The position numbers were made by a program, and so were the translations under genes. From assembly GCA_036365515.1 (NCBI GenBank), contig CM070876.1:40798195-40862194 (forward strand): a DNA stretch of 64,000 nucleotides. The letters are read 5' to 3'. The notes beneath the pieces are model-generated. The model had not been told where the DNA came from and did no database searches. It worked only from the letters and a program-made list of their open reading frames with translations. Numbering within the stretch: the stretch's first letter is position 1; every line of letters begins with the position of its first letter. The DNA is from Torymus aiolomorphi. Lineage: Eukaryota; Arthropoda; Insecta; Hymenoptera; Torymidae. Positions 16,502 to 40,956 of the stretch are shown here, piece after piece.

Positions 16502-16517
16502 CGCCCTGAAAAGGGCG
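16502..16517 (-). terminator. Histone-type 3' stem-loop after the Gln-rich gene
   Basis: The minus strand reads AATC then CGCCCTTTTCAGGGCG then ACCAAATATTTAAAC. It has a 6-bp stem, a UUUC loop and the CCCTTTTCAGGG core of metazoan replication-dependent histone mRNAs. It begins 23 bp after the stop codon. No AATAAA precedes it. Predicted role: SLBP binding and U7-directed cleavage without polyadenylation. Confidence 0.85.
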
Positions 16518-16539
16518 GATTAATGAAAAAAAAAAAAAA

Positions 16540-16980
16540 CTAAAAAAGTTGACGCGCAACCTTAGTCGCCTGGGGCCTGTAGAAGCCGATACATAATATT
16601 TCCGGTGAATCAGGTGATTCGAGACAAATCACTTCAGGCGACCGCTGCTGCTGTTGTCGTTGTTTCTGCAGTTGTTCTTGTTGATGCGGCGGTTCTTGCT
16701 GCTGCTGCTGCTGCGGTTGTTGTTTTTGCTGTTGCTGAGGTTCTGGTTGGCGGTGCTGCTGTTGTTGACGCTGCTGTTGTCGCTGGGACTGCGCTCCCCG
16801 AGGTTTCTCAATATACCGCCCAGCCTCCACATCATATACCAATACATGGTCCGGAGAATCCGGACCATGTGTTGGCATACAGCGAGACGTTTGAGGCGGC
16901 GATCGAGGTGGCTCCGGCTCAAGCATTTCTTGGAGGGCTACTGCAGCAGCTGCACACAGAAGATCCAACGGCGAACTCAT
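16540..16980 (-). CDS. Small Gln-rich protein of the stem-loop gene family, copy 1
   Basis: 146 residues from the ATG at 16980, chosen because the TATA box lies only 38 bp upstream and the longer in-frame ATG at 17184 would lie upstream of the TATA. The N-terminus is helical (MSSPLDLLCAAAAVALQEML), followed by EPEPPRSPPQTS, then the family motif SPDHVLVYDVEAGRYIEKP (about residues 41-59), a Gln-rich tract of roughly 50 residues, VICLESPDSPEILC and a C-terminus ending ARQLF. There are Ser-Pro sites. It is divergent from the hairpin-array transcript at 17325. The end Arg-Gln-Leu-Phe resembles a cyclin-docking RxLF motif, by inference. The function is unknown; I do not recognise the protein. Confidence 0.75.
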   Translation of the reverse strand: MSSPLDLLCAAAAVALQEMLEPEPPRSPPQTSRCMPTHGPDSPDHVLVYDVEAGRYIEKPRGAQSQRQQQRQQQQHRQPEPQQQQKQQPQQQQQQEPPHQQEQLQKQRQQQQRSPEVICLESPDSPEILCIGFYRPQATKVARQLF

Positions 16981-17017
16981 CTTGAGAAGTGATAGCGAAC
17001 TTCCGAAAGCATCCCAG

Positions 17018-17299
17018 TTATATACACAAAGCGCGGACCTGCTCGCGGCCGCATGAGAGCCGCCGCGGCCGCCGCCGCTCGAGCAAATGCTGTGATTGGA
17101 GCGGAGCAGCTCCTCGCCGCCACCGCCGCTCGAGCAAACGATGTGATTGGTACGGAGCAGCTCTTCGCCGCCGCCGCTCGGCATTGGCGCGGAGAAGATG
17201 CGGTCGCGCGCCGATTGATGCCGAATAGCTCTACGCCGCGACCGCCGCCGCTGCCGCTCATTGATTCGCGGCGGAGCAGCTTCGACGATCCTTATAAAT
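17018..17299. promoter_or_regulatory. Bidirectional promoter: Gln-rich gene (-) and hairpin-array RNA (+)
   Basis: TATATAA on the minus strand at 17018-17024 serves the Gln-rich gene; TATAAAT on the plus strand at 17293-17299 serves the array. Between them are three ATTGG (inverted CCAAT) boxes at 17095, 17146 and 17183 and GC-rich repeats of GATTGGAGCGGAGCAG and GCCGCCGCTCGAGCAAA. GATTGGAGCGGAGCAG also occurs in the bidirectional promoter at 24936-25211, implying shared regulation. Both expected start regions carry CACTTCTC. Confidence 0.75.
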
Positions 17300-18072
17300 G
17301 AGACGCGCCCGGCTGCAACAACACTTCTCTCGCGCGAGTGCCCGAGTGCGGGTCGCTGCGCGAGCCCTCGCTACTCTTCAAACAGCAGTAAGGTGTTTTA
17401 ACCGACTGCATATTTGGGAATGCGAGGGAAAACGAGGCTCTTCTCGTGCGCGTCTTACTCGCGTAAATCCTCTCTGCATGCTATTTCAACGTTTTCAAAC
17501 AGCAGTTAGGTGTTCTAACCGACTGCATATTTGTGAACACAAAACTCTTTTCGCGCGCGTCTTCATAACCTTCGCGTGCATGTTATTTAGACGTTTTCTC
17601 ACACGCGTTTTCAAATCGCAGTTAGGTGTATTAACCGACTGCATATTTGAGAATGTGATAGAAAGCGAGACTTTTCGCGCGCGTCTTCGTAACCTTCGCG
17701 TGTATGCTATTTTAATGTTTACAAATAGCAGTTAGGTGTTCTAACCGACTGCATATTTGTGAGCGCGAGATTCTTTTCGCACGCGTCTTTACAACCTTCA
17801 CGTACATGTAGTTTCGACGTTTTCAAATCGCAGTTAGGTGTAGTAACCGACTGCATGTTTTGAGAATGCGAGACTCTTTCGCGCGCGTTTTCGTAACCTT
17901 CGCATACATGTAATTTCGACGTTTTCAAATAACAGTTTGGTGTATTAACCGACTGCATATTTGAGAATTGCATGCGTCAAAACGCTGGAAGGCTCAAACT
18001 TTTTCATGAATCTTTACAATCTCTCTCGTTTTACTCACAAATGTTTATACCTTTCTCAGGACCAACTCAATC

Positions 18073-18088
18073 GGTTCTTCTCAGGACC
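18073..18088 (+). terminator. Histone-type stem-loop (variant) in the hairpin transcript
   Basis: AATC-GGTTCTTCTCAGGACC-TACAAATC. Six-bp stem with one G-T pair; loop TCTC instead of TTTC. The other arm has the perfectly paired version at 39484-39499. Confidence 0.6.
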
Positions 18089-18178
18089 TACAAATCTCAA
18101 CAAACAAACTTATTCATTATTTCAAGGACCCTGTTATTTTCAACAAAATTTATTATATGAAATGGTTTTATGTATATC

Positions 18179-18194
18179 GGTCCTTTTCAGGACC
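18179..18194 (+). terminator. Histone-type stem-loop, perfect
   Basis: ATCGGTCCTTTTCAGGACCTGCAAATTTC. The six-bp stem is perfect with a TTTC loop, and it is essentially the form seen in insect histone genes. It is the downstream member of the pair ending the hairpin transcript. Confidence 0.75.
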
Positions 18195-18759
18195 TGCAAA
18201 TTTCAACAACAAACTTATTTATTGTTTCAAGCGTAAAGAGCCTTACGATTTTCGGCAAATTTATTATATGAAATCGTTTATATAGAAAGAAATAGTGATG
18301 AAAGTCTTATTATGAAACGCTATTTTCTTACACTCTCTCATAACACGCTTTCCTATTATGAAACATTTTTTCTTTATTAGCGGTAATTTCAGTATAAATT
18401 TAGTTGAAAACTATAAAGAAAATCTGAAACGAATATGAATTCTTTCATAAGTACTTACAACATGCGTGGTTGTAATGTGCGTCGATTGCGTCTAACTATT
18501 TTAATTCAAAAACATCATGAATAAACCTATTTTATATTTATTTCTATGCAAATATAGCCGTTTAATCTATATTAGTAGCTCTGATGTACAGTATTGGTAG
18601 GTTTAGACACGATTTACAGGTTTATGTACAAATGATGTAAAGTTTAAAAGCACAAATAATTTAAAAATGTATATATTTAAACTGTATTGTAAATGAGATT
18701 CGAAATAAAAGCTCTTTTATACTGTTTCGTAATAGAGACCTGCAGTTCGTTGCATACAT

Positions 18760-19676
18760 CGACGCACCAGAAGAAGAACATTAATAAAAATTTGTCTTAT
18801 TGAAAAATATGAATACAAATTTGTCTTACTGAAAAATATTAATAAAAATATGTACTACTGAAAAATATGAATAAAAATTTGTCTTATTGAAAAATATGAA
18901 TACAAATTTGTCTTACTGAAAAATATGAATAAAAATTTGTCTGGCTGAAAAATATGAATACAAATTTGTCTTACTGAAAAATATGACTAAAAATTTGTCT
19001 TGCTGAAAAATATGAAAACAAATTTGTCTGGCTGAAAAACATAAATCACAAATTTAGCTTTTTGAGAAACATAAATAAATGTTTTTTCGTGCGGCGAATA
19101 ACATGAATAAAAATGTTTCGTTGACGAAAAACATTAACAAAAATGATTAGTCGACGAAGAAGATACGGAACGCGAATAGAGTTTCTGTACCGTACGAAAT
19201 ACGCATGGAGTTTCTGTACCGTACGAAATACGCATGGAGTTTCTATACCGCACGGAACACGAATGGAGTTTCGAATCTATGTTAATGTTTATCTTTAGTA
19301 AAAAAATTTTATTTATTTTTTTCCATGGCGAAATTTTTTTTTCCACATTTTTCGTCCGATAAATATTTATTCATATTTTTCATCAGCCAATTATTTTTTA
19401 ATATTATTCAGCACGACAAATTTGTTTTCATATTTTTCAGCCAGACAAATTTTTATTCATGTTTTTCAGTAAGACAAATTTTTATTCATATTTTTCAATA
19501 GGACATATTTTTATTAATATTTTTCAGTAAGACAAATTTGTATTCATATTTTTCAATAAGACAAATTTTTATTCATATTTTTCAATAAGACAAATCTTTA
19601 TTCACATTTTTCAATAAGACTAATTTTTATTCAGATTTTTCAGAAAGACAAATTTTTATTTTCTTCTGGTGCGTCG
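18760..19676. mobile_element. Foldback element inserted in the left duplication arm
   Basis: Ends are CGACGCACCAGAAGAA and its reverse complement. ACAT is duplicated on both sides (18756-18759 and 19677-19680). The other arm near 38900-38925 retains the unfilled site GCATACATATAG, proving an insertion after the duplication. Both arms consist of roughly 29-31-bp tandem units (AAAAATATGAATACAAATTTGTCTTACTG) in opposite orientation around a centre near 19250. No coding capacity. Confidence 0.88.
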
Positions 19677-19917
19677 ACATATAGTGAAACAGCTAATAAA
19701 AATCAGTGAATTAGTATATAATATTAGATGTATATAAACATTTGAAAAATGACTATAAATGCAAACAGGAACAGGTTCGGTTCAAAGGGCAATCGATTTG
19801 TATGTCAATAGGTTTCTGGCCCGTGGAGGACCAGCTGGGAAGTGTCTTCACTATCCCTCTATAAAAAATGCATTCTTGGCATGGTCGACGCCATGTTGCG
19901 ACGCCATGTTGATTTTT

Positions 19918-20150
19918 TCTCGAATATCTCGAATATCTCGAATATCTCGAAATCACGAATTTTTTGGCGCATGCGCAAATGCCCTATAGGGAGTCTCTAC
20001 AACCGTGCAGCGCGCGTGTGTGCGCTCGCCGTGTATACGGTATACCTATATATAGGAGAGCGCTATATATAGGTATACCTTACAGGAGAGCACTATATAT
20101 AGGTATACTTTATACACGGGCATATGCACGCGCAAAGTTATAGAGACACC
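19918..20150. repeat. Short tandem and palindromic repeats
   Basis: TCTCGAATA repeats about three times near 19918, and TATATATAGGTATAC with GGAGAGC repeats between 20038 and 20115. No gene. Confidence 0.5.
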
Positions 20151-20271
20151 CTTAGAGTTATGGTGGAATGGTATAGAGATAGCGCATGTGTTGTGAGCGG
20201 GAAAATATGATATATATTAATTGATAGAAATTGATAATCAATTGATAAATCGATGAAAAACTTTTATTTAA

Positions 20272-20690
20272 AATAGTATATTACATACCTTGTCAACCTG
20301 ATCGGCTTCGCCTCGGCCGACAATTACGTGTGATCTGAGACATTTCTTATTTATTGGCCAAGGTGTGTATACTATTTTTCTGCTCGACGGTGCCGGAAAG
20401 CGGCAACTTCGTTTCGCGCAGCGGCCGGGAAGTTGGCGCTTTCCGACCGGAGGGCAGAAAAATAGTATATTATGCACCTAGGGAGTAAAAGTAAAGAATG
20501 TCCAAGATCGCATGGAAATTGTCACCCGAGCCGAAGGCGAGGGTGACAAATATGCGATCTGAGGCATTCTTTATTTGCTCCCGAGGTGCATATACGATTT
20601 TTTTGCCTGGCGAGGCCGAAAATATAACCTTCGCGATCGGGTGCCGGGAGCAAAAGTGGTACTTTTGGCCCGCCAGGCAAAAAAAAATAT
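20272..20690. repeat. GC-rich hairpin cluster, MITE-like
   Basis: Nested inverted repeats: TATACTATTTTTCTG (20367) pairs with CAGAAAAATAGTATA (20456); TTTTTTTGCCTGGCG (20600) pairs with CGCCAGGCAAAAAAA (20671). It contains GAGCCGAAGGCGAG, also present at 48798-48830, so it belongs to a dispersed family. Confidence 0.5.
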
Positions 20691-21023
20691 TTATTCATTA
20701 CTCGATCAAAAAAGTAATATTGGTAAATTTTGAATTAATTTTCTACGTTATATTTGTACATATATATTTTTTATATAGGGAATGTTTTTTTTTTAATGGT
20801 TTTAGAGGAACTTTTATAGATAAATAGAGTTATGTTTATATTAACTTTTATTTTATTGTTTTTAGTAGAAATGTAAATTTATATCTATTTTGATTCCCCT
20901 TAGAGGAAGCTTTGCAACAAAAATTGACAAATTTTGTCGGTGACAAAAATTTTCGAGAAAAAAATGTTCAAAAAGATAGTTTAAGGCGATAATGTTGAAA
21001 TTTGTCAATTTTGAGAAAATTTC

Positions 21024-21058
<35 letters not shown>

Positions 21059-21059
21059 G

Positions 21060-21148
<89 letters not shown>
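21024..21148. repeat. TG microsatellite
   Basis: Nearly pure GT repeat with short GGTGGGTGGG interruptions. Cys-Val ORFs across it are artefacts. Confidence 0.95.
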
Positions 21149-21151
<3 letters not shown>

Positions 21152-21159
21152 CACTCGAT

Positions 21160-22860
21160 ATCTCGAAAACCATTTCACCTATTTTCGTCGGACAAAGCGT
21201 ATTATTCTCTTGGTCCCGAAAAAATACTCGGTTTTAATTTTTTATCAATTTTCTTTTTTTTATAACCAAAAATCTTTAAACTATCTACGATTTCTGTTTT
21301 TAATTTTCAAATTATCTTTAGTATGTCATGGAAAATGTTCTTATAATTCATAAATTAATTTTTCAAAAAATATTTGATTATCGACTCAAAATTTTATTTA
21401 CTTATTACGCTTATTGAAGATAATATTTGGTATAAATTTCAAGAGATTATCTTCATTTGTTTTTGAGAAAAAAATTATTTAAAAAAAGCGCGTTTTCACT
21501 GACACACATGACCAGAATAAAAACCAATTAATCGTCCTGAAATTTGGTATAGAGGATATAGATTTTTTATATCTTCAAACTGTTCATTGCGCAAAAAAAT
21601 CGAACTGTCACGACCAAAGATATTTGAGGTTGAAAATTTTTTAAAAATATTTTCGAATAGCGTTTTTCAGACAATATTTGATAGATAGAGAAACTTTTGT
21701 ATAATACAATTAATTATTGTCATATAAAAAATTAAAAAGAGGAATAAATACATTAGTTTGAGGAAGCTTAGTGTCAATGTATATTGGGAGCGGTTTTTTA
21801 TTAGTGATGATGGTCGGATTAGTGTAAGGATCTTTTTATTTATTTAAAATTAAAAACATGGTTTTCTCAATATAAAAATATTCATCTTGAATTTTATACT
21901 TTCACTTTGCCTTTTTATATGTTTAACATTATTAAACACAGAAAACAGATATTTTCATAATTATGTTATTGTTTATCTATCTTAGTGGCAATTTTACTTA
22001 TTGGACAAAATCACAACATGAAAAAAGCTTATTTAAATGAAATTGAACTTGATTAATCTTTATCATTGTAGTGATATTCTGATAATATAGAATTGAATGA
22101 ACCTTTAAATTTGTTAAAGCAGGAAACTATGGAATGGAATGAATCACTAGAACTAAATTCAAAAGATAAAGACAAATCATATATTAAAATAACAAATACT
22201 TCTTCATACATACATTTTGTAGTCAATAAAACTATAACATAACTTGATGAAAAACATCATAATGTTTAAATGAATTCAAAATAAGTGCATTAAGGTTGTA
22301 TTGGCCGTAAGGTCTCATTTAAAAATTTAAGACAAATATTTTGGTCGTATAATTCGTCGAAAACACTAATATTCTACAGTACTAAGAGTAAACAAATATG
22401 TAAAATGTTTTTTAGAACTATGAAAAAAACTTTACATCGGTTTTAGAACATTGTATTGCTCATTTCTTTCACTTTTTAGTATGACTGTACGCCTTATTAC
22501 CTAACTCGCAAAAGCAATTCATTTCAATTGCAATCGATTACAAAGGTTTTCTTTTACGTATACACAATTTTACAAGAACTAAACACTATTTTTTCAACTT
22601 AATTTTTTCAATAACTACGACGAGTCTAGCCATATTCAGAGAATCTCCATAAGAACCCACGTTAATTTTAAACTACAATATCTCGAAAACTATCTCGCAA
22701 ATCATATTCAAATTTGGCAGAGACGTTTATAATGATATTATTGACCTACTGACGAAACTTTATTGATCTGACATTATTTTTTACATATAGCCCATACAAC
22801 CTTAACATTTCTCTTGTAAATAAAAAAGAAACCGTTCATTAATTATACAGCTTCTTTTGT
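21160..22860. other. AT-rich intergenic DNA, no gene seen
   Basis: No supported ORF. Contains words such as ATCTCGAAAAC and AAAGATATTTGAGGTTGAAAATT shared with 46.4-47.1 kb and 51.4 kb, so it is likely old dispersed repeat. Confidence 0.5.
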
Positions 22861-22938
22861 AACTTAAAAAAAAAAATCAGCGCGCGAAGCGCGCGTGTCG
22901 AACTCTAGTAATTAAAAATAGTTTGCTCAGCGTATATA

Positions 22939-23343
22939 TTATCTGGTGGAAACGCGACAGCGCACCACGTTTAGGCTCTTCGAAAGTTCTTCATCATCAA
23001 TAATCAGCACATTAATTTTATCACTTTTCATCTCAGCGATCGGTATCTCATAATAAAGTTCTTCTTCCGGATTGTAGAACATCACATAGCCTGGTGAAAC
23101 TGGCGGCGGCTGAGTTGATGATGTAGGAGGCTCAACACTACTCTCACGCTCTGGAGGTGAACATACCGGCGGTGAGAGTAGTGGAGGTTGTGACAGCGGA
23201 GAAGACTCGTGAGCCAACAACTCCTGCAATGGTGAGGGCGGCGGTGACTCCGAAAATAATGAAGAAGTTTCATCAGCCTCTTCCATATTTGCGAGATTAA
23301 CTACGAATTCTTTGTAGAGTTGTTTCCAACGCTCCTCGCACAT
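22939..23343 (-). CDS. Small Ser/Pro-rich protein of the family, without stem-loop
   Basis: 134 residues from the ATG at 23343. The N-terminal helix is ERWKQLYKEFVVNLANMEEA, followed by a Pro/Ser-rich middle with many Ser-Pro sites. The family motif SPGYVMFYNPEEELYYEIPI is near residues 84-103, followed by KINVLIIDDEEL. TATAAAA lies on the minus strand at 23377-23383 and an inverted CCAAT at 23424. The leader (GTGCTTTCACGACATCGGCA) resembles that of the gene at 24396-24935, supporting common descent. Downstream there is no histone-type stem-loop, only a GC-rich palindrome (22879-22896), so its 3' end may differ from the rest of the family. Confidence 0.72.
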   Translation of the reverse strand: MCEERWKQLYKEFVVNLANMEEADETSSLFSESPPPSPLQELLAHESSPLSQPPLLSPPVCSPPERESSVEPPTSSTQPPPVSPGYVMFYNPEEELYYEIPIAEMKSDKINVLIIDDEELSKSLNVVRCRVSTR

Positions 23344-23376
23344 GACGAGTGTGCCGATGTCGTGAAAGCACGTTTC

Positions 23377-23383
23377 TTTTATA
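23377..23383 (-). promoter_or_regulatory. TATA box of the Ser/Pro-rich gene at 22939
   Basis: TATAAAA 34 bp before the ATG leaves a leader of only a few bases. CCAAT (ATTGG on the plus strand) is at about 23424-23428. Confidence 0.65.
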
Positions 23384-23399
23384 CTCTTTCAAGCCGCTC

Positions 23400-24350
23400 T
23401 ACCCCTTCCAGTGCTGTTCGCTGATTGGTCCGGATTGATGCATGAAAACGTATAAAATAACTGGTATACATTTGAAAAGCATCACCTTCCAACTGCACGA
23501 TGAAAGGGAAGGAGCCAAAACTTTTAAGGGAATGCCAAGTTATACTCCAGTGAGAACCCTCGAACAAGCAATTTTAGCAAAAACATTATCTCAACTCTTC
23601 TAAAGCGATAGTTGTAACTAACGCAAATTAGCACTTTTCAGAGCTACCACATGAGTTGAACGTAGAACAAAAATTATTCAAATTTCATCAAACATTAAAT
23701 ATAAAAATAATATAATAGTTATAGTATATTGTAATGTACTGCACAGTTATTTAAGTTATAAACATAAATATATTAGCTATAAAGTAAAATTTGGAAATAA
23801 AACAATAGGATAATATTTAATTAACTGGAGTAGAGTAAATTTTAAAAACTTATTCAGCATGCTTTGTCAAAGCGATACATTAAAAATAACTTAACTTATT
23901 TTAATATAAACCTTTGAAATGTAAAGTTTAAATGTAACCGTTCATTTAAACAGACTAATTATTTACTAGAATATTTCTAAGATTTTCTTTGATATTATTG
24001 TTTAATTATAATCATTCAATGGGCAGCGAAAATTTGAAATAATTTTATTTTTAAACAAATAGGAGTGATGGCAATTATACTTATGATTACTAGTAATAAT
24101 AAACATGTGCATATATATTCATTTAGGTAAAAAAACCTTTACACATTTATTCTGCGTTGGTTAAATGTTGAGTATTGATGTTTACATAGTCGGTTTATAG
24201 TCCTCCAATGAATACACCAATAAATTTTAGTTCGAATATGCATTTACACTCTCTTCTCTCTTTTCTCTACAAAAAAAAAGAAACATATACGAGAAAAAAC
24301 TATTAGAAAGTAAGCTTTCTCTTGAGAAAATAGATTTTAATACGTTTAAA
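23400..24350. other. AT-rich intergenic DNA, no gene seen
   Basis: Only scattered short ORFs; nothing beyond the upstream CCAAT region of the preceding gene. Confidence 0.5.
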
Positions 24351-24358
24351 AATATGAT

Positions 24359-24374
24359 CGCCCTGAAAAGGGCG
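24359..24374 (-). terminator. Histone-type 3' stem-loop after the Arg/Ser/Pro-rich gene
   Basis: The minus strand reads CAATC then CGCCCTTTTCAGGGCG then ATCATATTTTTAAACG. It is identical in stem and loop to that at 16502-16517. It begins 22 bp after the stop. Confidence 0.85.
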
Positions 24375-24395
24375 GATTGATAAAAGACCGAAAAA

Positions 24396-24935
24396 CTAAA
24401 ATAGATGACGACGACGACGAGTTTCATTCAAATTCTGACAGCGGCGACGCCGTTGATACCTTCTGTATGGAGTTATTTCAGCATCCTCTGAGCTTGAAGA
24501 CGAATGCCTCTGTGGAGATAAACGCGGAAGCGATGGCGACGGTTGAGACAGCGGATGCAACGGCGGAACTGAAGGCGGCGGTGAGTGCAACTCAGGAGCC
24601 GAGGCTAACGACGATGCCGGTTGAATTGGAGACTCTCGACCTGAAGATGTCTGCGGAGGTGGTGAGAGCGGTGGCTCTGGTGATGATGGTTGTGATTCAA
24701 AGTCGTCACTCGCTAGCCACTCATGATATGAGTGTAATGAAGGTGGTGCTGGTGGCGAAATATCATCCAAGGCGCGAAGCCGTCTCATCATATCATCACG
24801 CATTTTCGCCAACTTCCCAGTCAAATCATCATCGCTATCTGACGAGGAAAATTGCTCCGACTCAATGCCCATGTCCTCTTCCAAGGCCTGCAGATAGCGG
24901 TTAGTCTCATCATGAACTTGCTCATCGTTCCACAT
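24396..24935 (-). CDS. Ser/Pro-rich protein of the family, Arg-rich C-terminus
   Basis: 179 residues from the ATG at 24935; the TATAAAA at 24972-24978 rules out the upstream in-frame ATG at 25028. An acidic helical N-terminus (DETNRYLQALEEDMG, SSSDSDDDLTGKLAKMRDDM) is followed by a Pro/Ser linker with many Ser-Pro sites, including SSPEPPLSPPPQTSSG, which resembles the linker of the Gln-rich gene. The C-terminus is strongly basic (TPYRRYQRRRRC ... RRRRHLF) and ends Arg-His-Leu-Phe, matching the RxLF end of the Gln-rich protein. It lacks the Tyr-Asp motif. It is divergently paired with the gene at 25212. The basic tail could be a nuclear localisation signal, by inference. Function unknown. Confidence 0.75.
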   Translation of the reverse strand: MWNDEQVHDETNRYLQALEEDMGIESEQFSSSDSDDDLTGKLAKMRDDMMRRLRALDDISPPAPPSLHSYHEWLASDDFESQPSSPEPPLSPPPQTSSGRESPIQPASSLASAPELHSPPPSVPPLHPLSQPSPSLPRLSPQRHSSSSSEDAEITPYRRYQRRRRCQNLNETRRRRHLF

Positions 24936-25211
24936 CTTGACGAGTATGCCAAACTCACGAAAGCGCCCCAGTTTTATACACAAAGCGCGGACCTGCTCGC
25001 CCCTGCGCGAGTGCCACCGCTTGAGCAAACGTGCTGATTGGAGCGGAGCAGCTCTTTGCCGCCGTCACCGCTCATGTAACGCGTTGATTGGAGCGGAGCA
25101 GATGCGATCGCATTCTGATTGGAGCAGATATTCACGGCCCACTGCTACCCACCGCTTATGCAGCATATAAATATAACGTCGTGTCGTAATTTTAACACAT
25201 TCAGCAGAATA
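24936..25211. promoter_or_regulatory. Bidirectional promoter of two Ser/Pro-rich genes
   Basis: TATAAAA (minus, 24972-24978) and TATAAAT (plus, 25166-25172) face outward. ATTGG boxes at 25037, 25087 and 25118 sit within repeats of GATTGGAGCGGAGCAG, the word also found in the promoter at 17018-17299. The minus side shares GCAGGTCCGCGCTTTGTGTATA with that promoter, extending through the TATA box. The layout resembles divergent histone gene promoters. Confidence 0.78.
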
Positions 25212-25709
25212 ATGGAGTCGATGTCTCATCACTCAATTCTCGAAATTATTGAGAGAGAGGCTTCTAATCTGCACCAGCTAGTACTCAATTGTATCATGGA
25301 GCTGGAGAAGAGGGCCAGCGTCTCACCTACGATGGTTTTTCCCGAGGAAATGGAGCTGCCTCAGTGGACGCCCGATTTACCACCATACCTAACGCCACCT
25401 TTCGGAGCCTATTCACCATCATCATCAACACCCACGCTTCTACAGATGGAACAATCGCTGTCACCTGAGCCGTCCTACACATCGCCATCAATGATGACTT
25501 CAACTCCATCAACAACTATAAATAAAGTTTATGATGTTACGGAGAAACGATACATACAGATACCGAAGAGGACTCTCTCACCTCCAGAGTACATCACAGT
25601 GTATGATGCAGCGGATGAAAAGTATTATAAAATACTAAAATTTGCTGCTGAAGAGGAGACACCTCGAAAGAGAATATGTCTCGATAGCGCGCGCCATCGT
25701 TTATTTTAA
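25212..25709 (+). CDS. Ser/Pro-rich protein of the family with two Tyr-Asp motifs
   Basis: 165 residues from the ATG at 25212, 46 bp after the TATA; the earlier ATG at 25119 lies upstream of the TATA. The N-terminal helix is ILEIIEREASNLHQLVLNC. The middle is rich in Pro/Ser/Thr (LSPEPSYTSPSM). Two tandem versions of the family motif follow: NKVYDVTEKRYIQIPK (about 103-118) and PPEYITVYDAADEKYYKIL (about 124-142). The end is CLDSARHRLF; CLDS aligns with CLES of the Gln-rich protein and the RxxLF end with its RxLF. The two motif copies suggest internal duplication. Function unknown. Confidence 0.77.
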   Translation: MESMSHHSILEIIEREASNLHQLVLNCIMELEKRASVSPTMVFPEEMELPQWTPDLPPYLTPPFGAYSPSSSTPTLLQMEQSLSPEPSYTSPSMMTSTPSTTINKVYDVTEKRYIQIPKRTLSPPEYITVYDAADEKYYKILKFAAEEETPRKRICLDSARHRLF

Positions 25710-25799
25710 TTTTAAGTTGATTAGATTTGAATTTTTATACTTTATAATTTTCAATATTTTGTATTTTATGTATTGTATTTTTATAATTAAATATTAATC

Positions 25800-30716: not shown

Positions 30717-30961
<245 letters not shown>

Positions 30962-31632: not shown

Positions 31633-31700
31633 CTGTAAATCATATAATTTATCAATATTTATTTATAACATTTTAGTAAAAAAAAAAATTAAATACTCAC
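31633..31700 (-). other. 68-bp intron in the polymerase gene
   Basis: GTGAGT donor, poly-T, TTTACAG acceptor. The reading frame is continuous across it, from CHFTGK into YRGPAHSSC, a zinc-finger-like block of the family. Confidence 0.8.
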
Positions 31701-33244
31701 TTTCCCGTGAAGTGGCAGTGATCACGAACTTTCTGGTCCGTTTCAGAAAATGATTTCTGACAAATATGACATAGTTGAGCAGTACTAAACTGGATTTTCT
31801 CCTCAAGCGTCATATCTTTCATAGGCTTTGGATACTTGTACATTTCTTCTAATTTTAGAGCCAGAGAGTGAAGGCTCATCACGAACCACTTAGCCGGAGA
31901 TTCGTCTTCTTCTTTTTCTCGCCTATAGCATTTATATTCCGACAAGCTGTCATCATAGCTACATTTTACAAAGAAGCCTACACTAAACGGCTCATGGTGC
32001 TGATAAGCACGTTCGTGATCATGGGCTTCCTTCAGTAAACACTCGAAATCTGCGTAAATAATCATTGGTACTTGATTCTTATTGGAAAAGTTCTTAAACT
32101 GTAATATATTATCCTTTTGTGAAGGAAGTAAAATTTTACATTCATTTATTTCTGAACAGTCAATTGCATGCTTCGTCAGCTTTTCATTTGACCAGAAAAA
32201 ATGCAAACATCGGTCACAGATATAGGATTTACTTTTATGAGAAGATATCTGACTTCGTACGAGTCTTGATAAATCTTTTATCTATACATAATGATTTCTA
32301 AATACTATGTCAGTGTCATCAAGAGGCTCGTCATCTTCCTCCTCGTCTACATAATGACTTTCCGCAAGAAGTAAATTAACATGCTTTTCTTTCTTATAAG
32401 ATGTCAAGTGTCGTGGTAAGACGTCAAAAATGTTTCCCTTTTTCTTCAAGTAATAGATATTTACCAAAACATCATTCTGTTTTTCAAATTTGTTAATTTG
32501 TTTAGGATCTACTGGAAATTCAATCCCATCGAAGTTGAGCTCATCTTTGTATGAACCGTAACATGACACACGATCTGTATGTTTACTAACGGGATGTAAT
32601 GCTGATAGAATAGCCCATTTAAAACATTCGTTATCATCGTTTTTAACGTTAATGCAAGCCTCTTTTTTCTTGATAAATGAAGGTAAATCTATATAAGTGC
32701 TTCCCCTCATTGGATTAAACTTACAAATATTTATCGTTAAGTTTAAAATAGATTTAAGTGACCAGCCTGATTCTCGTTCTTGGAATTCTTCCATGTGTGC
32801 GTCGATAGGGTGCTGCAAATTCACGACGAACCACTCATTTAAGTCAGTTGTTAAATATATCGGCGTTGTCTTTGTATTAAAGTACATGATGTCCGTAGTT
32901 TCTTCGTCATTTTTAATCAATCCATATTCAGCTGCCAAAACTGTGTTAACTTTTAGAGCAGAATGTTTCTCAAGAGCTTCATTTACTTTAAGAATAACCA
33001 GTTGTTTTGCTTCTAGCATGAAAGTTAATAAGTCAAGATGTCTTAAGTTGGTTATCACACCTATTCTTATTCTATTTTCAAAAACGGAATGAATATCATC
33101 CCACACAACATTATTTTCTTGTAACTCGCGGTCTACTCGACGATCACATAACAAGTGCCGAACAGTGTTAATGAGAGCAATAGCGGCTTGAAGTTTTTGT
33201 TTATCAGATATTTTTAAATTACTTAATGAATATTGAGTTGATTG

Positions 33245-34933
33245 TAGGGGTGGGCGATATTCACTGTAAATATCGATATTGTGATATCGATAATATCGGG
33301 ATGATGAAAATCGATACGAGAGATATCATGCATTTATAATATCGATACTTCAAATATCGATATCTAAATATCAAATTTATTTAAAGAAATGTATTAGGGA
33401 ATTACGTACACGTGCAACAAAAAGTAAGACAATTATTTAAACAATTTTTAAACCCAAGTAGGCGAGGGATATGAGGTCCGCGCATATAAGGGAGTCATGT
33501 AGACATGAAAAAATAAGCAAAACGATTATTTAAATAGATTTTAAACCCAAGTAGGTGGAGGACGCGACATCCACGCATGTTAAGGAATTACGCAGACGTG
33601 TAACAATAACCAAGACAATTGTTTAAACAATTTTTAAACCCAAGTAGGCGGAGGATGCGGTCCACGCATATAAGGGAGTCATGTAGACCTTTAAAACTAA
33701 GCCGAACGATTATTTAAATAATTTTTAAACCCAAGTAGGTAGGGGATATGAGGTCCACGCATATAAGGGAGTATTGTAGACATGAAAAAATGAGCAAAAC
33801 GATTATTTAAATAATTTTTAAACCCAAGTAGGTGGGGGACGACACGCGAGGTCCACGCATATTAGGGAATTACGCAGACGTGCAACAATAACCAAGACAA
33901 TTATTTAAATAATATTTAAACCTAAGTAGCCGGGGTATATGAGGTCCACGCATATAAGGGAGTCATGTAGACATTAAAAAATTAGCAAAACGATTATTTA
34001 AACAATTTTTAAACTCAAGTAGCCGGGTGACGCGAGGTCCACGCATATTAGGGAATATTCGTAGACGTGCAACAATAAGTAAGACGATTATTTAAACAAT
34101 TTTTAAACCATAGTACGCGGTGGATATGAGGTCCACGCATATAAGGGAGTTACGTAGACGTCCGACGTAAGCATGACTTTTATTTCAAAAATTTTTAACG
34201 TCTATAATTCAACTCCCTTATATGCGTGGACCTCGCGGCTCCGGCTACATGGGTTTAAAAATTATTTAAATAATCGTTTTGTATATTTTTTCATGTCTAC
34301 ATGACTCCCTTATATGGGTGGACCTCATATCCCCCGCCTACCTGGGTTTAAAAATTGTTCAAATAATCGTTTTGCTTATTTTTTCATGTCTACATGACTC
34401 TCTTATATGCGTGGACCACATATCCTCCACCTACTTGGATTTAAAAATTATTTAAATAATCGTTTGACTTATTTTTATGTCTACATGACTCCCTTATATG
34501 CGTGGACCACGTATCCTCCACCTACTTGGATTTAAAAATTATTTAAATAATCGTTTGACTTATTTTCATGTCTACATGACTCCCTTATATGCGTGGATCG
34601 GTGAACCTCATATCCCCCACCTACTTGAGTTTAAAAATTGTTTATATAATTGTCTTGCTTATTGTTGCAAGTCTATACGTAATTCCCTAATATCCGTGGA
34701 CCTTGTGGCCCCCGCCTACTTGGGTTTAAAAATTATTTAAGTAATCGCGTTGCAGTTCACGTAACTTTTTTTCTATCTTTTTTCTTTGTAAATTTTTCTC
34801 ATCAATATTCGATATTTCGTTCTCGGATATCGATATCCTAATATATCGCTTTTGAAAATATCGATTTAAATATCGATATATTTAAGAAGAAAATATCGAT
34901 AATGAAAATATCGATATATATCGCCCACCCCTA
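33245..34933. mobile_element. hAT-like non-autonomous element filled with satellite
   Basis: Ends TAGGGGTGGGCGATAT and its complement. The flanks GTTGATTG (33237-33244) and GTTAATTG (34934-34941) match at 7 of 8 positions, an 8-bp hAT-type duplication. Inside the ends are ATCGATAT-rich stretches, then roughly 90-110-bp satellite units (AAACCCAAGTAGGCGGGGGA, GGTCCACGCATATAAGGGAG) in one orientation to about 34190 and inverted after that. It splits the polymerase coding region; the frame reads through if it is removed. No transposase. Confidence 0.87.
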
Positions 34934-35335
34934 GTTAATTGTATAGCATTATAACAGTACTCCAACCAAATATCAATGTCGTTTTCATCGACGTCACGAG
35001 TCAAAGATGCTTGATATAACTTCCATAGCTTATTTTCAACTGCTTCGGATCACTCCAAGACACGAAATGAGTTTTGCAAGTCTCAGTACCTCCTTTTAAA
35101 GAGAAGATATCGATGTTGGCGAGAGGTGGCGTCACACGATATGTTTTTGAACTAGAATATTCGACTGCTGTGAGCAGTAAACTAATTCTTTTTTTCTTTC
35201 AAGTACAACTTCTTTATTTGTGAGTAGTAACGTGACGGCTGGTAATATGGTGAAAAAAAACCACTCGTGTAAACTTTACGATGTTGCTTCGACTGCTCAG
35301 AGCACCAAACTGACTTTTCCTCTCAAATGCATCTC

Positions 35336-35430
35336 CTTTTATATTAAAATGATGGGGGGGGGGGGGGGGGAGAAATCAATCGTGATTGGTTGTGAGCAGC
35401 ATGGCGGGAATAACTTAACTGAATATAAAA
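35336..35430. promoter_or_regulatory. Candidate bidirectional promoter next to the polymerase gene
   Basis: TATAAAAG on the minus strand (35336-35343) and TATAAAA on the plus strand (35424-35430) face outward around a G-run (35354-35370) and an ATTGG box at about 35384-35388. The layout resembles the other two bidirectional promoters. The minus side would lead towards the polymerase gene; the plus side leads into the CAG-rich repeat. Confidence 0.4.
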
Positions 35431-35483
35431 AGGTGAACGAAGCTCTAAGCCTCATTCGCTTCTTCGCTCTCGTTCGAGAACCA

Positions 35484-35585
35484 TCACAGCAGTTGCAGCA
35501 GTTGCAGCAGTTGCAGCGGTCGCAGCGGTTGCAGCAGTCGCAGCAGTCGCAGCGGTCGCAGTAGTTGCAGCGGTCGCAGCAGCAA
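35484..35585. repeat. CAG-rich tandem repeat
   Basis: Units CAGCAGTTG and CAGCGGTCG repeat about eleven times. In frame it would encode a Gln/Leu/Ser/Arg tract, but no ATG lies between the candidate TATA at 35424 and the repeat, so I do not call a gene. Confidence 0.7.
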
Positions 35586-35892
35586 TCTTTGAACCTCAAA
35601 GGCTTACAAAATCATCGTTGAAAGACGCAGCGCAGATTGGTTTTACGCAAAATATGTTTGATTGAGTACAAATATGGAATCGCATAACGCGTGAAAACCT
35701 TAACATAGATAGTATAGAAAGCGCTCATAATCAACCAACGGGAAAGATTTGCTGAGAAAGTAAACATATACAAACAGTTAAATGTATGTAACATTGCTCA
35801 GAAATTCTTTTATTCATGCTTACATATAGACATATGAGAATAAAATATTTTGAGGCAATTAAACAATAAATTAAAAATAACATGAACATATA

Positions 35893-36146
35893 CACTGAGA
35901 GAAAAGTTTTGGAAAAATTACTATACTGTCTCGTAAAGCTACCACAGACTGTAAAGACCCGAAAAATTACCATACTTTACAGTAAATTTTACAATAAAGT
36001 ATAGTAAATTTTCCTATATTTCTGGTAAAATTTCTTATAAAGTATGGTAATTTTTTGGGTTTTTACAGTCTGTGGTCGCGTTCCCTGCACAAGATGGTAA
36101 TTTTTATGGAACGTTTAGTACTTTTTCCTGTACTTTTTTTTCAGTG
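35893..36146. mobile_element. MITE with CACTGA ends and TA duplication
   Basis: CACTGAGAGAAAAGT at the left and ACTTTTTTTTCAGTG at the right, with TA on both flanks. Internal inverted repeats CAGACTGTAAAGACCC and GGGTTTTTACAGTCTG. Its ends are related to the element at 1219-1500. Confidence 0.8.
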
Positions 36147-36592
36147 TATTACACGCAAATAGCTTCTCTCATCAAATAATTTATCTGCCTATGAATTTAA
36201 CACAAGTTATACAATTTATTAGTATATTGAGAAAATAGTAATGGTTACTGAGCTGACTGAATATTATTAATTACTATAAACTTCAATGATTAACAAATCA
36301 AGATAGAAAACTTTATATGTTAGTAAGCGAAATATTGTTTAGACGTGTGCGGAAGCATAATACATATGCGCTCCAAAGCATAATACATTTGTATGTATTC
36401 AAGCATATTACATGTATATGCATATTTGAACTGCTCCGAAAGAGAGAGAGAGAGATTTTCTTTACTGACAGCGATGACGTGGTGCGAGTGATAGCGGGGA
36501 GGCACTCTCGTGAAATGACGAAGGCTGGCGCACGCTCGTTATATTTATAACTTTAATCGCTCTGCCCCCTCGCCCCCTCCACAAATTTTCGT

Positions 36593-36642
36593 CCAATCAG
36601 AGCTCGAGCGGCGACGCCTGCACGCGAACAGATCGTATAAAA
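36593..36642 (+). promoter_or_regulatory. CCAAT and TATA boxes of the gene at 36694
   Basis: CCAAT at 36593-36597 and TATAAAA at 36636-36642. An initiator-like TTCAGCAC near 36660 would give a leader of about 30 bases. Confidence 0.7.
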
Positions 36643-36693
36643 GTACGGAGCGTCCACGACTTCAGCACAGTCTGCAAAGACAATTACTCCAGT

Positions 36694-37212
36694 ATGGAAA
36701 AGACTTTCATAAGCAACGAGGAGCTGATCCAACGTCATTTGGCGGCGTTCGAGGATTGGGGTGTTGTGGAGGAGATTGACCTTAGTGGTTGGTCTCCTTC
36801 CTATTCCTCAGGACCATCACCGGAGCTTGTACCGGCTCCACCATCGGCATGGTTGGGTGCCAGGACGTTGTCACCGGAGCCATCGCAAACATCATCGAGC
36901 TCCCCGCTCAAATTTGATGCGTGGCTCATGAGTTTGGAATCGCCTAACAGCGTGACATCAACGTTCGCCCGCTCATCACCGCAACCGTCGCCAACACCAT
37001 CACCTCTTTCTTCGCCTAAAGCATCGCCACCTCTACCACCAGCCTCACCTGACTTTATACTGATCTACGACCCTGTAGAGCAGTTTTATTATGAAGTACC
37101 GGCGATAGATCTTCGGTTGGCTGATGGTGTAGTACCAGTGGACGTCAATGTCGGCGAATTCGAGGCAATGGACGCTGAGGCTATTGTGCTAGAGTCATCG
37201 CCTGACATATAA
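36694..37212 (+). CDS. Ser/Pro-rich protein of the family with Tyr-Asp motif
   Basis: 172 residues from the first ATG after the TATA box. The N-terminal helix is NEELIQRHLAAFEDWGVVEE. The middle has at least ten Ser-Pro or Thr-Pro pairs (LSPEPSQTSSSSPL resembles LSPEPSYTSPSM of the gene at 25212). The family motif SPDFILIYDPVEQFYYEVP is near residues 118-136. The acidic end is AIVLESSPDI, comparable with VICLESPDS of the Gln-rich protein; the RxLF end is absent. Single exon, followed by a perfect histone-type stem-loop. Unknown function. Confidence 0.78.
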   Translation: MEKTFISNEELIQRHLAAFEDWGVVEEIDLSGWSPSYSSGPSPELVPAPPSAWLGARTLSPEPSQTSSSSPLKFDAWLMSLESPNSVTSTFARSSPQPSPTPSPLSSPKASPPLPPASPDFILIYDPVEQFYYEVPAIDLRLADGVVPVDVNVGEFEAMDAEAIVLESSPDI

Positions 37213-37247
37213 ATGGAGACGTCTATTAAAAAAAAAAAAAAACAATC

Positions 37248-37263
37248 GGCCCTTTTCAGGGCC
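37248..37263 (+). terminator. Histone-type 3' stem-loop, perfect consensus
   Basis: CAATC-GGCCCTTTTCAGGGCC-ACAAATATTTCAAACG. It matches the metazoan histone consensus GGYYCTTTTCAGRRCC with the usual A-C after the stem, 36 bp past the stop. It is the clearest instance in the window. Confidence 0.9.
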
Positions 37264-37783
37264 ACAAATATTTCAAACGTTCGAATAATTATTTTCTTTG
37301 ATTAATATTAGTTTCATCAACATAAACCTAATACATGAACTTGATATAGTTAAATGAAAGGAATATAAATTTTAAAAAATTGTTTCTTTAATAGCGTTTG
37401 AAATAATTTTATTTAATACTACCTGAAACAGATTTCTTTCGATTACTTTGGTGATTGGGCATTTTAGTTAACTAGTGAGAACATATTTTTTTTTTAGAAT
37501 ATGATTAAAGGATGCAGACGTGCGCACCAGTAGTATGAGCCTCATGTAAACACGCGCGGTGAGAAAGGCACGCGCCAGCGAGGAGAGAGGGATACGCGCA
37601 CCAGCGGCGAGAGAAGGGCACGCGTGCCAGCAGTGAGAGGCGCATGTATACGAGTGACTAGAGGGGCGCAGGCGTCCGCGGCGGGAGGGGAGGGGGTTAT
37701 TCGCCAGCAACGAGAAGGGCGCGCGCGAAAAACGCGACGTATGGAAGAAATAGAGAGAGAGAGAGAATTTGATTGTTTATGTT

Positions 37784-37799
37784 AGCCCTGAAAAGGGCT
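37784..37799 (-). terminator. Histone-type 3' stem-loop after the proline-rich gene
   Basis: The minus strand reads AAATC-AGCCCTTTTCAGGGCT-AACATAAACAATC. Six-bp stem, TTTC loop, 18 bp after the stop. It faces the stem-loop at 37248, so the two genes are convergent. Confidence 0.85.
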
Positions 37800-37816
37800 G
37801 ATTTGACGGTAGCTTA

Positions 37817-38191
37817 CTACCTTTCGCGGGACCTCTCCGCTCGCCACTCGCGAAGCCGTTCCTTCACCTTCATCTCCACCACCTGCCTCAGCGCCATACG
37901 GGCCATACGTACTCGCTCCTCCGGTCTTATAGGGGCGAGAAAGGTCCGAAGCTCAGCGCTGAGTCGTGATGGTAGCTGAGGTGGTGGAGGTGGTTGTGGA
38001 GGTAGTGGAGAAGGTTGAGGTGAAGCAGGAAGAGGAGGTGAGGGAGGAAGAGGTGAAAGAAGAGGAGGTACTGAAGGAAATGTAGGGGGAGGAGATGAAA
38101 AGCGTAAGGTCTGAGGAGGAGGAGGAGGGGGAGGAGGAGGAGGAGATGGAGGAGGAGGAGGTCGGCCCGCTTTCGACATCATGTGCCGCAT
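37817..38191 (-). CDS. Proline-rich protein with charged C-terminus
   Basis: 124 residues from the ATG at 38191. About 65 residues are mostly Pro and Ser (runs of up to ten Pro), then a charged helical end LSAELRTFLAPIRPEERVRM ... LRQVVEMKVKERLREW. TATAAAAA is at 38337-38344. The first ATG after it (38291) opens a 20-codon frame that is not in phase, while the main frame is open back to 38413 and looks peptide-like (KKEDIALRRVAFGARKDW). So either translation starts at 38191 behind an upstream ORF, or a one-base indel has shifted the true start. It has the family's 3' stem-loop but not the Tyr-Asp motif, so membership rests on gene structure. Lower certainty on the start. Confidence 0.6.
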   Translation of the reverse strand: MRHMMSKAGRPPPPPSPPPPPPPPPPQTLRFSSPPPTFPSVPPLLSPLPPSPPLPASPQPSPLPPQPPPPPQLPSRLSAELRTFLAPIRPEERVRMARMALRQVVEMKVKERLREWRAERSRER

Positions 38192-38336
38192 CTCACCCCG
38201 AGTGATGCCCGGGATTTGTGACCAATCTTTACGTGCACCGAAGGCAACTCTTCTCAGAGCGATGTCTTCTTTTTTGCTTCGAAACGTCCATGACGTTTGA
38301 GAAAGGCAGAATGATAATGAGACACGGGCGCGAGCC

Positions 38337-38344
38337 TTTTTATA
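38337..38344 (-). promoter_or_regulatory. TATA box of the proline-rich gene
   Basis: TATAAAAA on the minus strand within a GC-rich region (GGCGCGCGCGTGCGCAATG upstream). No exact CCAAT box was found. Confidence 0.55.
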
Positions 38345-39483
38345 GGCTCGGGCGCGCGCGTGCGCAATGACGCATGCTTGCAGCGCCTCGAGTAGTAGGG
38401 GGGATGTACACATAGCGGTCTAGAGCGAGAGAAAAAGTAAACAGTGGCTCGATAGGCTCATGTTTTGTTTTGAATGGTCTTATAGACAAAATATGACCTA
38501 ATACAACCACTGAACGCGTATAAAGAAAAACATGACGTGTTTTATGTATCGCTCTAAGAGCCCTATTATGAGACGATTGAAAAGCTGCCCCTATTATGTA
38601 ATGGTTTAATAACCAATTAAGATAGAGGTGATTTGGGACCTTTAAATTTAATGAGAAAAAAATATTTATGTGTTACTTGTTTTTGCATATGCGCTAATAA
38701 ATAAATCGATTTTTTATGTATAGAACATGAACAAATTGTTTAGTCTCGTCGTTTCCAAGCTCTTATAAATCGATTGCTATTTGAATTGAAACTGTTCTGT
38801 GTGCAATATTTTCAAATGTTTAATCAATTTTGAACATAGGCATAAATTTCGATTATATACTAATTCACCGATTTCATTACTACTTTTTATCAACTATTTC
38901 ACTATATGTATGCAAACGAACTGCATGTCCCTATTATCAAATAGTATAAAAGAGTTTTTATTTTGAATCTCATTTACAATATAGTTTAAATATATAAATT
39001 TTTAAATTATTTGCACTTTTAACTAAAAATATTAATCATTTGTAAATAAACCTGTAAATCGTAGCTAAACCTACCAATACTGTACATCAGAACTACTAAT
39101 ATAGATTAAACGTTGATATATTTGCATAGAAATAAATATAAAATAGGTTTATTCATAACGTTTTGAATTAAAATAATTGAACTTTGTTAAGGAATCGACG
39201 TACCACGCATGTTGTAAGTAGTATGAAAATTTTTTTAAATTCATATACGTTCAGATTTTCTTCGTAGTTTCCAACTAAATTTATACTGAAATTACCACTA
39301 ATAAAGAATGTTTCATAATAGGGGAGCGAGAGGGGTATCTATAAGAAAATAGCATTTCATAATAGAGACTTTCATCATTATTTCTTTCTACATAACCGAT
39401 TTCATGGAATAAATTTATCGAAAATCGTTCCGTAAGGCTCTTTACGCTTGAAATAATAAATAAGTTTGTTGTTGAAATTTGTA

Positions 39484-39499
39484 GGTCCTGAGAAGGACC
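39484..39499 (-). terminator. Histone-type stem-loop ending hairpin transcript copy 2
   Basis: The minus strand reads CAATC-GGTCCTTCTCAGGACC-TACAAATTTC. Stem perfect; loop TTCTC-type with TCTC. It corresponds to 18073-18088, where one pair is G-T. Confidence 0.65.
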
Positions 39500-40155
39500 G
39501 ATTGAGTTGGTCCTGAGAATGGTATAAACATATATTAGCAAAACGTTATGAGATAGATGGGAAAGCATAAAAGATATATGCAGCCGGTTAGGACACCTAA
39601 CTGCTATTTAAAAACATAAGCGAGTAAAAGACGTATGCGAAAAGAGTCTTGTATTTTCAAAAATATGCAGCCAGTCAGACACCTAACTGCAATTGAAAAT
39701 ACAACTGAGAAAAAAATGCACGCGGCGAGTAAAAGACGTACGCGAAAAGAGTCTCGTATTCTCAAATGTGCAGCCGGTTATACACCTAACTGCTAATGAA
39801 AATACAAGTGAGAAAACATCCATGCGGCGAGTAAAAGACGTACGCGAAAAGAGTCTCCTTTCTCAAATGTGCAGCCGGTTATACACCTAATTGCGATTGA
39901 AAATACAAGTGAGAAAAAAAATGCACGCGGCGAGTAAAAGACGTACGCGAAAAGAGTCTCGTATTCTCAAATGTGCAGCCGGTTATACACCTAACTGCTA
40001 ATGAAAATACAAGTGAGAAAACATTCATGCGGAAAGGGGCCTAAACGTGTCGCGTTTCGCACGTCCAAATATGCAGTCGGCTAATACACCTAACTGCTAT
40101 TTGAAGAGTAGCGAGGGCCCGCGCAGCGACTCGCACTCGGGCACCCGCGCGAGAG
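39484..40155 (-). ncRNA. Tandem-hairpin transcript, copy 2
   Basis: Minus strand, behind TATAAAT at 40183-40189. Six hairpin cores near 40068, 39972, 39867, 39766, 39663 and 39575 read GCAGTTAGGTGT then a short loop and ACCGGCTGC or close variants. Relative to copy 1, CGACTGC is mostly CGGCTGC, which swaps a T-A pair for T-G and keeps the stem. Linkers carry GACTCTTTTCGCGTACGTC. The tail has the stem-loop GGTCCTTCTCAGGACC at 39484-39499. The array's ORFs differ from copy 1, supporting a non-coding role. Expression is not shown. Confidence 0.5.
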
Positions 40156-40182
40156 AAGTGTTTTTGCAGCCGGGCGCGTCTC

Positions 40183-40444
40183 ATTTATAAGGATCGTCGA
40201 AGCTGCTCCGCCGCGAATCAATGAGCGGCGGCGGCGGCGGTCGCGGCGTAGAGCTATTCGGCATCAATCGGCGCGCGACCGCATCTTCTCCGCGCCAATG
40301 CCGAGCGGCGGCGGCGAAGAGCTGCTCCGTACCAATCACATCGTTTGCTCGAGCGGCGGTGGCGGCGAGGAGTTGCTCCGCTCCAATCACAGCGTTTGCT
40401 CGAACGGCGGCGGCCGCGAGCAGGTCCGCGCTTTGTGTATATAA
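40183..40444. promoter_or_regulatory. Bidirectional promoter, copy 2
   Basis: TATAAAT (minus, 40183-40189) and TATATAA (plus, 40438-40444) with CCAAT boxes between them (for example CCAATCAC near 40334 and 40393). Nearly the same sequence as 17018-17299, inverted. Confidence 0.75.
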
Positions 40445-40481
40445 CTGGGATGCTTTCGGAAGTTCGCTATCACTTCTCAAG

Positions 40482-40883
40482 ATGAGTTCGCCGTTGGATC
40501 TTCTGTATGCAGCTGCTGCAGTAGCCCTCCAAGAAATGGTTGAGCCGGAGCCACCTCGATCGCCGCCTCAAACTTCTCGCTGTATGCCAACATATGGTCC
40601 GGATTCTCCGGACCATGTGTTGGTGTATGACGTGGAGGCTGGGCGGTATATTGAGGAACCTCGGGGAGCACAGTCCCAGCGACAACAGCAGCGTCAACAA
40701 CAGCAGCACCGCCAACCAGAACCTCAGCAACAGCAAAAACAACAACCGCAGCAGCAGTAGCAGCAAGAACCGCCGCATCAACAAGAACAACTGCAGAAAC
40801 AACGACAACAGCAGCAGCGGTCGTCTGAAGTGATTTGTCTCGAAGCACCTGATTCACCGGAAATATTATGTATCGGCTTCTAG
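40482..40883 (+). pseudogene. Gln-rich protein gene, copy 2, with premature stop
   Basis: ATG at 40482, 44 bp after the TATA start. The N-terminus (MSSPLDLLYAAAAVALQEM) and motif DHVLVYDVEAGRYIEEP match copy 1. A CAG codon in the Gln tract has become TAG at 40758-40760, giving 92 residues. Beyond it the frame stays open to a second TAG at 40881, where copy 1 has TAC. Both changes remove the C-terminal region, including the RxLF end. The promoter and 3' stem-loop are intact, so it may still make a truncated protein; I treat it as a decaying copy. Confidence 0.75.
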
Positions 40884-40940
40884 AGGCCCCAGGCGACTAA
40901 GGTTGCGCGTCAACTTTTTTAGTTTTTTTTTTCATTAATC

Positions 40941-40956
40941 CGCCCTTTTCAGGGCG
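40941..40956 (+). terminator. Histone-type 3' stem-loop, copy 2
   Basis: TAATC-CGCCCTTTTCAGGGCG-ACCAAATATTTAAAC, identical over this stretch to the site at 16502-16517 in the other arm, although the gene before it has a stop mutation. Confidence 0.85.

Follow-up and report, generated by a model that had tools for sequence, protein, structure and literature searches.

Histone-type 3′-end signals on the accessory genes of a Maverick-like mobile element in the genome of the wasp Torymus aiolomorphi

The 64,000-nt stretch of the Torymus aiolomorphi genome analysed here (contig CM070876.1, positions 40,798,195 to 40,862,194 of the forward strand; hereafter the window) contains a mobile element with six short open reading frames (ORFs), named genes A to F, and a putative non-coding array RNA, most of which are followed by hairpins of the type that ends replication-dependent histone mRNAs. 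These genes make up the accessory cluster of a Maverick/adintovirus-like mobile element rather than a host gene family, and the best of their 3′ ends agree with the ends of replication-dependent histone genes of the host, within and beyond the hairpin. An initial annotation of the sequence had taken the cluster for a family of ordinary genes; it is instead the cargo of an element with inverted repeats, target duplications, a DNA polymerase B and dozens of copies. We consider it probable from these features that the accessory genes of a Maverick-like lineage give rise to S-phase mRNAs that are processed by SLBP/U7 and not polyadenylated. To our knowledge, histone-type 3′ ends have not been described for Mavericks, Polintons or adintoviruses, and such ends are considered almost confined to histone mRNAs.

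Nine perfect histone-type hairpins, defined by a 6-bp stem, a UHUH loop and a G at stem position 2, were found in the window. They include all seven hairpins of the initial annotation, each at exactly the position given there, and two more at 18073-18088 (+) and 39484-39499 (-). In 150 shuffles of 2-kb blocks with dinucleotides kept, the mean was 0.15 and the maximum 2 under a stricter rule, and 0.73 and 3 under a looser one. AATC precedes eight of the nine, the exception being TATC at 18179. The sites are listed here, together with one imperfect 3′ end, with their scores under a covariance model of host histone ends (described below).

16502..16517, - strand: hairpin of gene A, 51.6 bits
18073..18088, + strand: hairpin 1 of the array RNA, 22.6 bits
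18179..18194, + strand: hairpin 2 of the array RNA, 21.3 bits
23625..23677, + strand: imperfect histone-type 3′ end after a 23-codon ORF, 32.4 bits, E 1e-4
24359..24374, - strand: hairpin of gene C, 54.6 bits
25800..25815, + strand: hairpin of gene D, 36.8 bits
37248..37263, + strand: hairpin of gene E, preceded by AATC and followed by ACAAAT and then AAACGTT, 63.5 bits, E 2e-12
37784..37799, - strand: hairpin of gene F, 30.1 bits
39484..39499, - strand: hairpin of the right array RNA, 28.6 bits
40941..40956, + strand: hairpin of the second copy of gene A, 51.6 bits

A second, weaker hairpin lies near gene D at 25869-25884. With the Rfam model RF00032 (Histone3), a search of the full 64 kb, run in evalue mode with E up to 10, returned the same nine places only; the best match scored 32.2 (E 9e-6), none reached the gathering score of 34, and the default search of the window gave 0 matches. 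The gathering score was reached in five of the 12 other loci searched, namely L044, L010 (gene E of copy 1 of the element), L015, L046 and L006.

The 3′ ends were compared with those of the histone genes of the same genome (1.08 Gb searched). A Pfam search yielded at least 150 histone matches (150 of 239 candidates were scored), mostly in clusters on C4, and 17 histone-gene stretches were taken for comparison of their 3′ ends. The 19 hairpins found there have the form AATC-GGCCCTTTTCAGGGCC-A(C)CAAA, with single exceptions, and are mostly followed 12-18 nt further by AACGT or a near variant. In one H3 stretch (L053) the stem is mismatched, and L055, an isolated H3 gene that lies on a different contig and is probably a replacement variant, has no hairpin within 241 bases. 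A covariance model was built from 18 of these ends (one cut-off end was excluded and the stem was specified by hand), and its ten top matches in the window all lie inside the element, in the order 37243+, 24328-, 16471-, 40936+, 25795+, 23625+, 37765-, 39452-, 18068+ and 18174+, with E values from 2e-12 at the first to 0.06 at the last. The best place outside the element reached 19.9 bits (E 0.13). The imperfect site at 23625-23677 is the tenth window site, contributed by this model. Similarity to the host ends in the flanks and the downstream element is strongest for genes A, C and E and weak for the array RNA. The same model gave 59 matches at E up to 1 in 28 loci, with no match at that threshold in the flanks L029, L032 and L035 or in L021 and L055. 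Measured against histone ends of the same genome, the proposal of histone-type 3′-end signals on non-histone genes is therefore supported. A tblastn search with the four core histones found none in the window or in loci L001-L048, in keeping with the annotation's statement that no histone is encoded.

Genome-wide, the hairpin core gave 2502 matches against 264 for the pattern read backwards, a figure that mixes histones, elements and transposon copies and is not a gene count. Loci L001-L048 were taken from the first 100 listed zero-mismatch core matches (C1, 1.0-97.9 Mb; some of these were fetched) and show which contexts occur rather than how frequent they are. When AATC-N5-TTTTCA-N5 sites were anchored with no demand for pairing, 53 of 62 were fully paired; eleven of the 53 do not have the core sequence used to fetch the loci, and their changed pairs are AU for GC. 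The AAACGT element stands downstream of the hairpin in 13 of 52 context groups, compared with 0.31 in shuffles. At L044:1358-1845, seven histone-type hairpins stand in tandem downstream of one small ORF.

The hairpins had been described as lying after the stop codons of small intronless ORFs or at the end of a hairpin array. A stop codon precedes the hairpin in genes A (22 nt from stop to hairpin), C (21 nt), D (90 nt), E (35 nt) and F (17 nt). Before the three array hairpins no ORF is shown as coding, and the frame of the right-end A copy (hairpin 40941) has two in-frame stops. The reported lack of AATAAA before the hairpins holds between stop and hairpin in the same five genes; ATTAAA is present there in D and E.

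The element and its genes are arranged as follows.

16358..41109, no strand: whole mobile element, 24,752 bp, 5′-AG...CT-3′, terminus pattern C4:40814552+ / 40839303-
16352-16357 and 41110-41115: 6-bp target-site duplication CATGAT, flanking the element
16358..18759, no strand: left terminal inverted repeat, holding gene A and the array RNA, with the same extent in copies
38764..41109, no strand: right terminal inverted repeat
16540..16980, - strand: gene A, 146 aa, ending VARQLF, TATA-like box at -44, CCAAT boxes
17293..18194, + strand: divergent array RNA (predicted transcript), TATA-like box, repeats with the GCAGTTAGGTG...AACCGACTGC hairpin
22939..23343, - strand: gene B, 134 aa, no hairpin in the window copy
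23532..23603, + strand: possible 23-aa gene MPSYTPVRTLEQAILAKTLSQLF, divergent from B, TATA-like box at -81
24396..24935, - strand: gene C, 179 aa, ending RRRHLF, TATA-like box at -43
25212..25709, + strand: gene D, 165 aa, divergent from C, ending ARHRLF, TATA-like box at -46
29094..35100, - strand: DNA polymerase B gene (DNA_pol_B_2), upstream end approximate, introns judged by eye
36694..37212, + strand: gene E, 172 aa, with the motif SPDFILIYDPVEQFYYEVP
37817..38191, - strand: gene F, proline-rich, start uncertain
40482..40919, + strand: second copy of gene A, two in-frame stops

The terminal inverted repeats are about 2.4 kb long and 90-97% identical in blocks. The order A-array-B-C-D-PolB-E-F-array-A recurs in two further copies; the element terminates in AGTAGATGANCTATGGGGATTCGGGACC, and each copy has flanks of its own. 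The terminus pattern matched 103 times genome-wide at up to 2 mismatches, compared with 0 in the control. Among the 100 terminus places listed, 35 pairs of neighbours are convergent at less than 80 kb (median 19.9 kb), with 0 divergent or same-strand neighbours, and the genome thus holds about 35 two-ended copies. Target duplications were scored for 23 of the 35 pairs, namely 20 newly tested ones and the window, copy 1 and copy 2. Among the 20, 6-bp duplications were exact in 17 (0.84 expected under shuffled pairing), two matched at 5/6 and one at 3/6, with none at a length of 7; they are also exact in the window and copy 1 and match at 5/6 in copy 2. The polymerase domain is over the cut-off for DNA_pol_B_2 (E 3e-17), with an Endonuclease_7 match below cut-off, and a PDB search with the window polymerase gave no match. 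The polymerase region of the two further copies is 89-97% identical in blocks, its ratio of non-synonymous to synonymous substitution rates (dN/dS) is 0.13-0.17, and the sequence at 33246-34933 that interrupts the gene in the window is absent from both.

Within the terminal repeats, the window region 17320-18070 consists of strongly folding repeats of the GCAGTTAGGTG...AACCGACTGC hairpin, and the predicted fold of 17320-18200 has a z of -7.9. A minisatellite (CATAGAGTGACACCTTTTT-like) occupies 26120-28340 of the element and also occurs in L033 and L034; in copy 2 it amounts to ~13 kb in the fetched parts, between which lie 43 kb that were not fetched.

The affiliation of the element is indicated by a sister element at C1:8.506-8.525 Mb, which is a Maverick/adintovirus-like provirus. 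It combines hairpin genes (L015) with a polymerase, an integrase and a protease match, is bounded by a 323-bp inverted repeat of 98.8% identity (L049:3124-3445, L111:1899-2220) and contains ATPase- and capsid-like frames judged by eye. Its polymerase is 69-80% identical to that of the window, and as it has both an integrase and hairpin genes, a fuller relative carries such genes too. Copy 2 is itself inserted in a Maverick-like element. To the left of copy 2, L032 codes for an rve integrase with a chromodomain, both over cut-off, and has protease and ATPase matches below cut-off; to its right, L035 has a PolB match below cut-off. A gene family like one of the L032 Maverick likewise has a hairpin downstream (L005/L006 group). 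The L032 integrase had no match in the window, L009, L030, L010 or L031, and the L032 proteins gave no match for capsid, packaging ATPase or protease in the window or copy 1, a search that distant relatives could escape. The window element thus has the appearance of a derivative from which the virion genes have been lost.

Most of the small proteins are under purifying selection: where computable, and B excepted, dN/dS is 0.16-0.64, with 0.16-0.34 for gene A in 13 of 14 comparisons (dS was saturated in one; copies with a stop were excluded) and 0.22-0.32 for gene F (four comparisons). The aligned parts of relatives from other assemblies show 57-89% identity, one match aligned over 6% being excluded; these relatives comprise P0004-P0006 for gene D, P0001-P0003 for gene E and P0008 for gene C (73% identical). 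The relatives of C and D probably lie together, since the longest contig is 4700 for both. Pattern searches of IMG/VR returned 251 stretches for gene E and 34 for gene D, with 0 confirmed in either case, and a Pfam search of proteins A-F found nothing over cut-off and no histone. The gene B hairpin is present 21 nt past the stop in L009, L022 and L037, and the 23-aa frame MPSYTPVRTLEQAILAKTLSQLF is near-identical in L037 and L038, where it is open further upstream. A motif like SPxxILIYDPxExxYYE is common to A, B, D and E (alignment judged by eye). Among 13 proteins tested, which include relatives of one another, SP/TP sites were above the shuffle mean in all 13, a C-terminal [RK]xLF was found in six (0.018 in shuffles) and LxCxE in none. 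We take the C-terminal RxLF to be a cyclin-docking motif.

Three divergent pairs are formed by A and the array RNA, B and the 23-codon ORF, and C and D, and TATA-like boxes lie 40-58 nt ahead of the start codon in A, B, C, D, E and the second A copy, with CCAAT or its reverse nearby. Divergent pairs and TATA/CCAAT motifs are also features of histone genes. The small genes would be driven by TATA-/CCAAT-like promoters, often as divergent pairs, most likely with transcription and processing in the histone pathway. SLBP would bind the hairpin of the element mRNAs, the U7 small nuclear ribonucleoprotein would pair with the downstream AAACGT element, and cleavage would occur just past the hairpin with no poly(A) added, so that the mRNAs would build up in S phase and be degraded later. 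The encoded proteins, which are short, SP/TP-rich, probably disordered and in several cases end in RxLF, probably engage cyclin-CDK and help the element replicate along with the host genome. On balance we favour the wider proposal that a lineage of integrating Maverick/adintovirus-like DNA viruses took over the histone mRNA pathway for a non-coding array RNA and a full set of accessory genes with cyclin-docking products, whose expression would start with host S phase and which would form a new class of SLBP/U7 clients present in many copies and kept in derivatives that have no virion genes.

Such genes resemble replication-dependent histone genes in AATC, the 6-bp stem, the UUUC loop, ACAAA, the downstream AAACGT and their short intronless ORFs, but differ in that they encode no histone and that some genes of relatives (L044, L045) bear several tandem hairpins. 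With Mavericks, Polintons and adintoviruses the window element shares PolB, long terminal inverted repeats, 6-bp duplications and 5′-AG ends, the last two being Polinton traits, and the sister element adds an integrase, PolB and a protease-like gene; the window element differs in having no detected integrase, capsid, protease or ATPase. A search of openly licensed texts found no work joining Mavericks, Polintons or adintoviruses with histone-type 3′ ends, and the titles and abstract openings listed report histone hairpins neither on mobile elements nor on genes other than those of histones. In a preprint, 'oncoid' denotes oncogene-like accessory genes of small DNA viruses (PMC11071296). The element proteins are similar in that they are small and accessory and may influence the cell cycle. 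Adintoviruses have oncoids with LxCxE, whereas six of the 13 proteins tested here have RxLF ends instead. If the proposal is true, a large mobile-element gene set with a histone signal would offer a natural test of that signal beyond histone supply, and an integrating DNA element would time its expression to host replication via one RNA element. The customary interpretation of such hairpins as a mark of histone genes would be upset, and poly(A)-selected RNA-seq would miss the element genes.

Several observations weigh against the favoured reading. The left array hairpins score low (22.6 and 21.3 bits), the gene D hairpin has the loop UUUA instead of UUUC plus a U-G pair, and the Rfam search for U7 snRNA gave 11 matches, none over cut-off, with matches in 12 of 14 control genomes too. 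Gene B has no hairpin in the window and a dN/dS of 0.42-0.99, and RxLF is absent from B, E and F and, in the strict form, from D. One or more stops interrupt each of several A, C and F copies (two in the second A copy), and the last polymerase exon has one stop in each of two other copies, which means that many copies have decayed. AATAAA lies 193-403 nt past the stop of A, C, D and F, and polyadenylated read-through is therefore possible.

This downstream AATAAA, the hairpin-free gene B and the fact that ends are common to copies by descent would fit hairpins that were captured with a histone gene end and are now inert passengers of mRNAs polyadenylated downstream. We regard this as unlikely, as the stem remains paired in many contexts even where the pair types have changed, the hairpin has often retained AATC and the AAACGT element, and it lies 17-90 nt past the stop in different window genes and similarly in other element types. 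Even less probable is a role of the hairpins in replication or integration of the element DNA: they do occur inside the terminal repeats, also in a separate Tc1-like transposon (L047), yet they stand after stop codons on the strand that codes, are flanked on either side by histone-type sequence and are also present at interior genes. A family of host genes expressed in S phase, to which the polymerase and repeats are accidental neighbours, would account for purifying selection on most proteins and for relatives in other assemblies, but is already contradicted by the insertion marks, with the same gene order and polymerase between common termini that pair with 6-bp duplications at many sites, and is the least credible of the three.

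Histone-type hairpins also accompany a DUF4817/Tc1-like transposase ORF in L003, L004, L008, L013, L017 and L025. In five of the six, the stop lies 29 nt before AATC-GGCCCTTTTCAGGGCC, and the frame in L003 stops earlier; the copies are 97-98% identical and do not have the AAACGT element. In a related transposon at L047:1567-2095, both of the terminal inverted repeats contain the hairpin, and the host-histone model scored 30.8 bits in L003 and 35.8 bits in L047. Outside the element, the window contains a Bel/Pao-like retrotransposon at 2033-7434, as judged by eye from its ORFs.

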